Source: Taibaiella lutea
GTDB taxonomy: Bacteria > Bacteroidota > Bacteroidia > Chitinophagales > Chitinophagaceae
Assembly: GCF_008629695.1 (NCBI RefSeq)
Contig: NZ_VWSH01000001.1
Location: 957,990 to 1,021,989 of the forward strand
Direction: 5' to 3'
Length of the DNA: 64,000 bases
Under the pieces are notes generated by a model, which worked only from the letters and a program-made list of their open reading frames with translations, was not told the DNA's origin and did not search any database. Of the stretch, positions 41,675-55,539 are shown one piece after another. Within the stretch, counting starts at the first letter, position 1. Each line of letters opens with the position of its first letter. A program made the position numbers and the translations under genes.

Positions 41675-42310
41675 ATGATAAGCGTAAGATGTTCTGCTCT
41701 TGAGCAAGCAAGAAATGATCCTTCTTTTTTTGTACAATCTCTAATAGAAGGAACAAAAGGAGGTGGGTCTTTTGGCATGTTTAGGCATTGGCAAAAGGCA
41801 ATTAAAGACATGCATGTAGAGAATTTAACTCCCTCAGAAGCTATTCGAAATTTACAAAACAGCTTTCTAAGGTTTAATGAAACTCGTGCCAATAAAACCA
41901 AACAGGAAAACTTAATCAGAAGTCTCGTTGCTTATGAAAAGGAGTTTAAGAAAATGAAATTTGAATTTGAAGAAGGCATTCGTAGGATTAAGTGGGATAT
42001 ACATAGCGAAGTACGGTTAACAGGAAATACACCTTGGATAGTAAATGATAAAAACAATTTCTTTGCTTTCTTTCCTATTGAAGAAGAAATTCCCTGGCTT
42101 ACTCAATTAAGATTTCCTTTATTACAAAAATACATTGCTGACAGAATCCTTAAATGTGATGTCAACAAAGTCAATATGGGAATATTTAGACTAAGCGAAA
42201 ATAAATTTGACTTTAAACGTTTTGATGAGGAGGAAATTGAAGATGCCCTAAATGAAACGAGGGGTATTTTTCAAAATGTTTATGATGAGTACGATAAAAG
42301 GAAAAAGTAA
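41675..42310 (+). CDS. Hypothetical protein (211 aa)
   Basis: Not recognised. Cytosolic, charged, alpha/beta mix. It shows HWQKAIKDMHVENLTPSEAI, a basic coiled segment (LIRSLVAYEKEFKKMKFEFE), a beta-rich middle (WDIHSEVRLTGNTPWIVNDK) and a C-terminal LPLLQKYIAD-like region (FPLLQKYIADRILKCDVNKV). It starts 33 bp after the Cys-rich lipoprotein and precedes the broken nucleotidase on the same strand by about 100 bp, so the three may share a transcript. Confidence 0.6.
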   Translation: MISVRCSALEQARNDPSFFVQSLIEGTKGGGSFGMFRHWQKAIKDMHVENLTPSEAIRNLQNSFLRFNETRANKTKQENLIRSLVAYEKEFKKMKFEFEEGIRRIKWDIHSEVRLTGNTPWIVNDKNNFFAFFPIEEEIPWLTQLRFPLLQKYIADRILKCDVNKVNMGIFRLSENKFDFKRFDEEEIEDALNETRGIFQNVYDEYDKRKK

Positions 42311-53836: not shown

Positions 53837-54136
53837 TTAAGCGTACATCTTCTCTTTTGACTTTTTAATCTGACTTACTAAAGAATCGAAAGCTTCGTCG
53901 AAAGACTCTTCAAACACTTTTGATTCATGCTTTGCAAACAAAGACTTTTTGGGTATGGACACTTTGATTTCGGCTACTTTGTCTTTAACTTTCTGCGATA
54001 AGTTTTCTAATCTCAGAAACACTTCCACGCCGGTTATTTTATCATGAAAGGTTTTCAGTTTGTCAATTCTCTTTTGTACGTGTTCCAGCAGTTTCTCGTC
54101 TGCATCAAAATGAACAGTCTGAATTTGTACATTCAT
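53837..54136 (-). CDS. hpf: Ribosome hibernation-promoting factor
   Basis: 99 aa, the short HPF/RaiA (YfiA) form. It begins MNVQIQTVHFDADEKLLEHV and has RIDKLKTFHDKITGVEVFLR then KVSIPKKSLFAKHESKVFEE-type text (EIKVSIPKKSLFAKHESKVF) and FDEAFDSLVSQIKKSKEKM. It binds the 30S subunit and inactivates ribosomes in stationary phase. It follows xerC and rpsU on the same strand, an order common in Bacteroidota. Confidence 0.9.
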   Translation of the reverse strand: MNVQIQTVHFDADEKLLEHVQKRIDKLKTFHDKITGVEVFLRLENLSQKVKDKVAEIKVSIPKKSLFAKHESKVFEESFDEAFDSLVSQIKKSKEKMYA

Positions 54137-54219
54137 AGTTCGTCATTTTTTAAGTTAAAAAAAATATTCTAAATGTAGTGTTATTCCATATTCGAAAGGT
54201 ATAAAATAATAATGATAAA

Positions 54220-55113
54220 TTAACTTTTAGGATGCGCTTTTCTGTAAACTTCCTGCAACCGGCTGATATTTGTTTGTGTATATATCTGAGTGGCTGCCAG
54301 ACTGCTGTGACCCAATAATTCCTTAATCGCATTTAAATCCGCACCATTATTGGATAGCTGTGTTGCAAATGTATGCCGCAACACGTGAGGACTTTTTTTA
54401 ACCAATGTCGTTACGTTTTTCAAATGTCTGGTAACAACCCTGTAAACGTAATTGGGATATAATTCTTTACCGCTCATCAAACACAACAAATTGACTGATG
54501 GTTGGTTGAAAATTTTTCTTTTTTCATCCATATAATGCTTGAGGTCAATCAGCAATTCATCGCTCACGGGAATCATTCTTTCTTTATTGCGCTTACCCAG
54601 CACTCTTATCTGCTTCCTCGAAAATTCAATATCCGATTCTTTAAGTCCTATTAGTTCCGCCCGACGTAATCCGCATTGATAGAGCATTTCAATAATAAGC
54701 CGTTCGGTATCGCCTTCAAATCCATCAGGATAATTGCGCATGGCTTCAATGGCAACAGTTTGTTCCTGTTCTAAAAACACAGGTAACCTTTTAGGGGCTT
54801 TTGGAGCTACTAATAATTTAGTAGGATTGCTTTGCACCAGTTTCAGGCGCATGGCGTATTTAAACAAAGATTTTAAGGTGGAGATTTTACGTTGTAATGT
54901 ACGTTCACTCAAGCCTTCTTCTTTCATTCCCGCCAACCAGGAACGGAGATGTATATGCTTGATGTCGTCAGCATCTTCCAGTTCATACTCCTTCTGAAGG
55001 TAACTGGTAAATTGAAGCAGGTCATTATGATAAGCTGTGAAAGTCAGTTCGGACATGCGCTTTTCAAAGCGGATGTATCGGAGGAATTCGGGTATAATGT
55101 TTCGTAAAGTCAA
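54220..55113 (-). CDS. xerC: XerC/XerD-type tyrosine recombinase
   Basis: 297 aa, TTG start at 55113. A later ATG (MSELTFTAYHNDLLQF) would cut into the N-terminal SAM-like domain FLRYIRFEKRMSELTFTAYH, so the TTG is preferred. The catalytic set is intact: Arg in CGLRRAELIGLKESDI, Lys in VLGKRNKERMIPV, HVLRHTFATQL (H-x-x-R), LGHSSLAATQIYTQ (His and nucleophile Tyr). Its place between rpsU and hpf marks it as the chromosomal dimer-resolution recombinase, not a phage integrase. XerC versus XerD cannot be separated. Confidence 0.88.
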   Translation of the reverse strand: MTLRNIIPEFLRYIRFEKRMSELTFTAYHNDLLQFTSYLQKEYELEDADDIKHIHLRSWLAGMKEEGLSERTLQRKISTLKSLFKYAMRLKLVQSNPTKLLVAPKAPKRLPVFLEQEQTVAIEAMRNYPDGFEGDTERLIIEMLYQCGLRRAELIGLKESDIEFSRKQIRVLGKRNKERMIPVSDELLIDLKHYMDEKRKIFNQPSVNLLCLMSGKELYPNYVYRVVTRHLKNVTTLVKKSPHVLRHTFATQLSNNGADLNAIKELLGHSSLAATQIYTQTNISRLQEVYRKAHPKS

Positions 55114-55276
55114 AAACAGGATAATTAAGCAATGGAAAATACTGCTCCCGAAACATTATAGAAACAAGAATCGGGACTGTAAATATACGTATTTACAATC
55201 CCGATTTCAAAATAAATATTGATAACAAACAGCCAAAAAATGACTGCAGTTTTTGTTTTAAAATTTAAGGAAAAAC

Positions 55277-55474
55277 TTAAATTTCAACTTTACCAGCCAT
55301 GATTTGCTGACGGTAAGCAGCTTTAAGAATTTCTTTACGACGTTCTACAGAAGGCTTAGTGAAAGCTTGACGAGCGCGTAATTGGTTCAAAGTGCGAGAT
55401 TTCTCAAATTTCTTTTTGTACTTTTTGAGAGCTTTATCAATATTTTCGCAATCTTTTGCATCTAAAATAAGCAT
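55277..55474 (-). CDS. rpsU: 30S ribosomal protein bS21
   Basis: 65 aa from the ATG at 55474 (MLILDAKDCENIDKALKKYK); an upstream in-frame Met falls in the promoter. It contains FEKSRTLNQLRARQAFTKPS and VERRKEILKAAYRQQIMAGK, typical bS21 with a basic C-terminal helix. In Flavobacterium bS21 helps hide the anti-Shine-Dalgarno end of 16S rRNA. A strong SD sequence sits in front of this gene, unlike its neighbours, pointing to autoregulation. Confidence 0.95.
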   Translation of the reverse strand: MLILDAKDCENIDKALKKYKKKFEKSRTLNQLRARQAFTKPSVERRKEILKAAYRQQIMAGKVEI

Positions 55475-55482
55475 AGTTATAT

Positions 55483-55490
55483 ACCCCCTT
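55483..55490 (-). promoter_or_regulatory. rpsU: Strong Shine-Dalgarno sequence of rpsU
   Basis: On the minus strand AAGGGGGT can pair over 8 bp with the anti-SD end of 16S rRNA (one G-U pair); the G run ends 9 nt before the ATG. Other genes in the window have A/T-rich leaders without such a site. Confidence 0.7.
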
Positions 55491-55507
55491 TTTTTCCTTT
55501 GGGATGG

Positions 55508-55539
55508 CAAAGGTAATTTCTTTTTTTAAATTGAACAAA
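55508..55539 (-). promoter_or_regulatory. rpsU promoter (TTTG, 20 bp, TACCTTTG)
   Basis: On the minus strand the -33 TTTG (55536-55539) and the -7 TACCTTTG (55508-55515) are 20 bp apart, an exact match to the Bacteroidota housekeeping consensus. The ATG is 34 bp downstream. Confidence 0.65.

Follow-up and report, generated by a model that had tools for sequence, protein, structure and literature searches.

The closest described system is rpsU of Flavobacterium johnsoniae, which encodes ribosomal protein bS21. In that species, translation initiation on rpsU mRNA is faster when ribosomes lack bS21, an effect that requires an extended Shine-Dalgarno (SD) sequence, and bS21 together with bS18 and bS6 hides the 3' tail of the 16S rRNA (PMC9976891). 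The same paper reports that replete ribosomes of Bacteroidia make no use of SDs, that rpsU of F. johnsoniae is transcribed alone, and that rpsU stands out across the Bacteroidota by its exceptionally strong SDs, with about half of the Chitinophagales having one by its criteria. The subject of bS21 and SDs is treated in PMC9976891, PMC8710568, and PMC10783764; the terms "wobble" and "GGGGG" are absent from the main text of PMC9976891. An earlier note on the DNA analyzed here had referred to the feedback on rpsU and bS21 in Flavobacterium, and its description agrees with the account in PMC9976891.

The window, a stretch of 64,000 nucleotides from the genome of Taibaiella lutea, contains an open reading frame of 65 aa on the minus strand (55277..55474) that encodes bS21 (Pfam PF01165, E 3.9e-14), with its ATG start codon at 55474 and its end at 55277. 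This protein aligned to bS21 of F. johnsoniae (7jil chain z, E 7.4e-18) with Y54 opposite Y54, and the closest rpsU among the matches was that of Taibaiella helva (92% identical). According to Pfam, bS18 and bS6 are also present in the genome, and the bS18 has its match in chain w of the F. johnsoniae structure 7jil. The rpsU gene is followed by xerC and hpf, and a divergent gene, which we take to be tsaD, lies in front of it. Together with xerC and hpf, which encodes a hibernation factor, rpsU occupies 53837-55474. In a set of 110 rpsU loci (101 distinct), all found by similarity to the T. lutea bS21, there was a xerC homolog in 108 and an hpf homolog in 99. The start of xerC is either a TTG at 55113 or an ATG at 55056, and neither start in this region (55056-55113) has an SD.

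The sequence AAGGGGGT is found at 55490..55483 on the minus strand, with a spacing of 8 nt to the rpsU ATG. It is part of an extended SD, AAAAAGGGGGUAU (55481..55493, minus strand), predicted to form 13 contiguous pairs with the 16S tail of the family, AUACCUCCUUUUU, at -16.4 kcal/mol. Within the core, the U of CCUCC faces a G, which makes one G.U pair. The strong SD that had been proposed at rpsU was therefore confirmed, at good spacing, and the proposed 8 bp of pairing are present, but one of the eight is this G.U, which had gone unmentioned, and the length was understated, because the helix with the family tail extends to 13 bp. With the Flavobacteriales tail, ACACCUCCUUUCU, the same SD forms 9 bp at -12.7 kcal/mol, so that it lies beyond the -13 kcal/mol criterion of PMC9976891 with the tail of its relatives and short of it with the Flavobacteriales tail, although the energies here were calculated with RNAduplex and those of PMC9976891 with free_scan. 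The ceiling for pairing with the tail is about -16.3 kcal/mol for a bare complement and -17.3 kcal/mol in context. In an energy scan of the core, the change from A to G cost 0.9 kcal/mol, while every other core change cost at least 4.4 kcal/mol. The G.U is most likely a near-neutral replacement that leaves the helix close to full strength.

The tail of T. lutea was inferred from its relatives because its own 16S was not found: pattern searches and a search with the Rfam model gave no match in this genome, and the Rfam model also missed five of 14 control genomes. No match to the 16S end was obtained in T. helva (L002), the sole genus mate searched with a sound pattern. In an order-wide search, the 16S-end pattern matched 54 of 396 genomes. 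The tail was visible in 32 of the 133 genomes of the same family (a hand count within the order-wide set), and 31 of these 32 read AUACCUCCUUUUU, the remaining one ending in C. Among the 30 genomes reached through named loci, the 16S end was found in five, three of them Chitinophagaceae-like with AUACCUCCUUUUU and two Flavobacteriales with ACACCUCCUUUCU. Another genome of the order (G115:C46:2912-2940) has a 16S tail whose core is changed, AUAUCUCUUUUUU.

The leader upstream of the rpsU ATG reads TCCCAAAGGAAAAAAAGGGGGTATATAACT. Farther upstream is a match to TTTG-N20-TACCTTTG (55508..55539, minus strand), which we take to be the Bacteroidota promoter consensus, and the position of this putative promoter would place the transcription start so that the mRNA leader is about 30 nt long (55475..55504, minus strand). 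The consensus promoter had been part of the original claim. Within the window, the consensus was matched 4 times, against 5.35 matches expected, and so is no rarer than by chance; the assignment is instead supported by the recurrence of TANNTTYGC within the last 45 nt upstream of rpsU in 81 of 92 relatives. Between rpsU and xerC, folding predicted a terminator-like 17-bp hairpin with a T-rich stretch (55169..55206, minus strand; -22.3 kcal/mol, z -6.65). Because it has its own putative promoter upstream and this hairpin downstream, rpsU is probably transcribed alone, as its own short unit. An inhibitory hairpin within the leader was ruled out, since the leader fold was weak (-3.2 kcal/mol) and no better than that of shuffled sequences.

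SDs of this strength were rare in the genome. The best of the 60 other open reading frames in the window, a set restricted to frames of 120 aa or more and thus longer than rpsU itself, paired at -8.1 kcal/mol. In 299 frames sampled from 20 stretches of 20 kb of the same genome (400 kb in total), the best value was -7.5 kcal/mol with first-ATG starts and -10.7 kcal/mol if any early ATG was allowed. With these predicted starts, pairing of -4 kcal/mol or stronger was found at the SD position in 26 of the 299 versus 53 of the 299 at mock positions; since the SD hits fell below the mock hits, this agrees with the SD depletion reported for Flavobacteriales. The neighboring genes had no SD, as had been claimed for them (tsaD -0.9, hpf -0.7, and xerC 1.1 or -2.4 kcal/mol depending on the start codon), and neither did the three ribosomal protein genes that were scored (rpsF 0.0, rpsR 0.4, and rplI -0.8 kcal/mol).

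A genome-wide scan for AAGGRGGT-N4-13-ATG, the only form of SD covered, found 20 sites, fewer than the 27 obtained with the pattern reversed. In eight of them the frame that follows is no longer than 26 aa, and another seven fall within longer frames, including one at -16.3 kcal/mol and one at window position 41757. The latter, AAGGAGGTGG (41757-41779), precedes an in-frame ATG inside the open reading frame 41675..42310 (211 aa from its first ATG) and is most likely coding sequence rather than an SD. The other five are plausible gene starts, of which rpsU has the strongest pairing (-16.4 kcal/mol), followed by a RibD_C protein (-15.5), a 291-aa frame (-15.1), a 385-aa frame (-14.8), and a doubtful 106-aa frame (-13.2). 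None of these four is a ribosomal protein according to Pfam. The 291-aa protein had no Pfam match, and the 385-aa protein had beta-barrel Pfam matches below the curated cut-offs; the SDs of both overlap upstream frames (68 and 173 codons, respectively) and may be coding sequence. The gene for the RibD_C-domain reductase (L178; G000:C2:406462-406480, minus strand) has the leader AAAAAGGGGGTAAATCAAT before its ATG, which pairs with the family tail at -15.5 kcal/mol and is close to the rpsU leader, and it may respond to the same ribosomes as rpsU. The claim that a strong SD occurs only at rpsU must be narrowed slightly: it is the strongest of five plausible starts, but three other gene starts lie at -14.8 to -15.5 kcal/mol. 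Many equally strong SDs, which the earlier note had named as grounds for abandoning its reading, were not found, though these three come close.

The 101 distinct loci were grouped by record title into six Flavobacteriales, five others, and a remaining 90, including that of the window, called Chitinophagaceae-like, a label that is approximate because many of the titles read just "Bacteroidetes bacterium". Y54 was present in all 101 (a set gathered by similarity to the T. lutea bS21). The core was GGAGG in 29 of the 90 family-like leaders, GGGGG in 38, and neither in 23. Comparison of leaders across relatives, which the earlier note had proposed, thus showed that the SD is conserved, though not in these 23. 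In the 67 family-like SDs, the variable core base was always A (29) or G (38) and never C or U, and all 67 paired at -14.2 to -17.3 kcal/mol, with a median of -15.8 kcal/mol for both cores. The three bases 3' of the core were UAU in 66 of the 67, and UGU or UGA in all six Flavobacteriales. An SD ending in GGUAU goes with U1533 in the tail, and one ending in GGUGU or GGUGA goes with C1533; because A pairs with U1533 in one tail and G pairs with C1533 in the other, this represents a two-sided compensatory change at position 1533. As judged from sequence, such substitutions are those expected if selection acts on pairing and not on the bases themselves.

The order-wide search gave a similar picture. 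In 79 of the 133 genomes of the family, from 37 genera, GG(A/G)GGUAU was found at rpsU-like starts; 65 of the 79 (27 genera) had the A core and 14 (10 genera) had the G core, and no genus had both (hand counts from lists that were recounted). On a quick tree inferred from XerC and Hpf (92 rows: 40 with the G core, 31 with the A core, and 21 with none), at least seven changes between A and G were needed on the best tree. A run of four or more A was found in 30 of the 38 G-core leaders and six of the 29 A-core leaders. A longer A run as compensation for the G.U was nevertheless set aside, since there were just four independent pairs on supported branches, too few for the comparison.

Losses of the SD were also seen. 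The 23 family-like leaders without it belong to loci that kept Y54, which suggests that the loop is dispensable. Near Flavipsychrobacter, seven loci (L030, L032, L033, L036, L039, L049, and L056) have an eroded rpsU SD (GGG or GGGG), and within one sublineage such eroded leaders adjoin relatives with an intact GGGGG on the tree. Of 26 further rpsU places without a locus, leaders were taken for 20 (18 from other families and two, L205 and L206, from the same family), leaving out those in G004, G041, G044, and G049 and two in G052. Three of these 20 had a strong SD (L189, L190, and L204), all from other families, and 18 had Y54, the exceptions being F in L200 and H in L187. L187 belongs to G050, a genome from another family whose 16S tail is altered (UCAUCUCCUUUUU) and which also lacks an rpsU SD and carries H at bS21 position 54; it is one case in which the SD, the canonical tail, and Y54 are missing jointly. 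A distant bS21 match was found in an uncultured phage. The four viral bS21 loci (L183-L186, two pairs with identical leaders) had no strong SD (0.2 and -4.3 kcal/mol), and because these leaders are A/T-rich without one, viral bS21 might escape the feedback.

The reading favored here, with a probability of roughly 0.8, is that bS21 is under translational feedback control, with the 13-base rpsU SD as the sensor. As in F. johnsoniae, the 16S tail of replete ribosomes would be enclosed by a pocket that bS21, bS18, and bS6 form, so that SDs would be ignored, and most genes would have none. In 30S subunits without bS21, the tail would be free to pair with the long rpsU SD, and this pairing would boost bS21 synthesis until the ribosomes were replete. 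This reading is proposed because of the mechanism described for F. johnsoniae (PMC9976891) and because Y54 stands opposite Y54 in bS21. The length and strength of the helix, the scarcity of such SDs in the genome, the conservation of the SD, and the compensatory changes also speak for it; the missing 16S of T. lutea, the SD losses in relatives, and the three other strong SDs speak against it. The layout appears to be the one known from Flavobacterium, as had been suggested, with Y54, pairing beyond -13 kcal/mol, a probable transcription unit of its own with a short leader, and conservation.

An ordinary strong ribosome-binding site, providing high constitutive synthesis of bS21 with no feedback, is one alternative. 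Strong SDs raise translation in most bacteria, and that 23 of the 90 family-like relatives do without an SD would fit such a site. However, the absence of an SD from rpsF, rpsR, and rplI and the scarcity of SD pairing relative to mock positions in the 299 sampled frames make it quite unlikely, as does the reported failure of replete ribosomes in Bacteroidia to use SDs (PMC9976891). It is far less probable that the anti-SD has itself changed to CCCCC, of which GGGGG would be the perfect complement. Natural covariation of the rpsU SD and the anti-SD is described in Chryseobacterium (PMC9976891), and in the order-wide search ten genera have GGGGG in every matched member, although seven of them are represented by a single genome. 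Yet CCUCC was found in all seven GGGGG genomes in which a 16S end could be assigned alongside rpsU (G020, G335, G421, G425, G248, and the genomes of L071 and L013), which rules out a CCCCC anti-SD as the cause of GGGGG in these relatives.

The least credible explanation is that the G run arose by chance in a leader rich in A and G and serves no function. Leaders in the Bacteroidota are A-rich, with upstream adenines (PMC9976891), A runs by themselves are able to base-pair with the tail's U run, and equally strong sites occur inside genes, as with the one at -16.3 kcal/mol. Chance would not be expected to place GG(A/G)GGUAU at rpsU-like starts in more than half of the family's genomes, nor to leave core substitutions that preserve pairing and a compensated position 1533.

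A wider reading is rather doubtful. It holds jointly that selection in the Chitinophagaceae acts on the stability of the helix between rpsU and 16S rather than on its sequence, with the core flipping between A and G, the A run and tail bases adjusting, energies staying in a band of -14 to -17 kcal/mol, and at least one lineage (G050) lacking SD, canonical tail, and Y54 together, and that the leader of the RibD_C reductase (-15.5 kcal/mol) may be under the control of this bS21 sensor. The idea of a tuned set-point is weakened because the band lies just below the ceiling of the tail, so that pairing as strong as possible would fit as well. If the wider reading is true, the regulon that senses bS21 would extend beyond rpsU to the reductase. 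The rpsU feedback would itself extend specialized ribosomes, of which clear bacterial cases are rare, to a named subgroup that has a 16S tail of its own. The comparison also gives evidence of natural compensation at a position of the tail beyond the anti-SD core, and the natural variants (the G.U core and the losses) could be used to measure the energy threshold of the switch.

The feature is real, conserved, and explained by a published mechanism. The additions to the known system are modest, namely a family-specific tail, a core G.U that recurs among the relatives, and a few further genes whose SDs are almost as strong; the tail, the G.U, and the covariation are not claimed to be first reports. 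The T. lutea gene resembles rpsU of F. johnsoniae as described in PMC9976891 in its strong SD, Y54, SD-poor genome, probable short transcription unit of its own, and pairing beyond -13 kcal/mol. It differs in that the F. johnsoniae SD ends in GGUGU, whereas that of T. lutea ends in GGUAU, has a G.U in the core, and would face the family tail AUACCUCCUUUUU; the predicted helix is also weaker, at -16.4 kcal/mol versus about -20 kcal/mol (PMC9976891), and the Flavobacteriales loci analyzed here gave -20.6 and -20.7 kcal/mol with the Flavobacteriales tail. In other Bacteroidia orders, SDs are found on rpsR, which encodes bS18, likewise a protein of the tail pocket (PMC9976891), whereas rpsR of T. 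lutea has none (0.4 kcal/mol). The covariation of SD and anti-SD in Chryseobacterium (UCUCA; PMC9976891, PMC8710568) is similar in that the rpsU SD follows the changes in the tail of its lineage, but in the relatives of T. lutea whose tails were seen the core CCUCC is unchanged, and the changes are instead at the flanking positions 1533 and 1543, together with the G.U.
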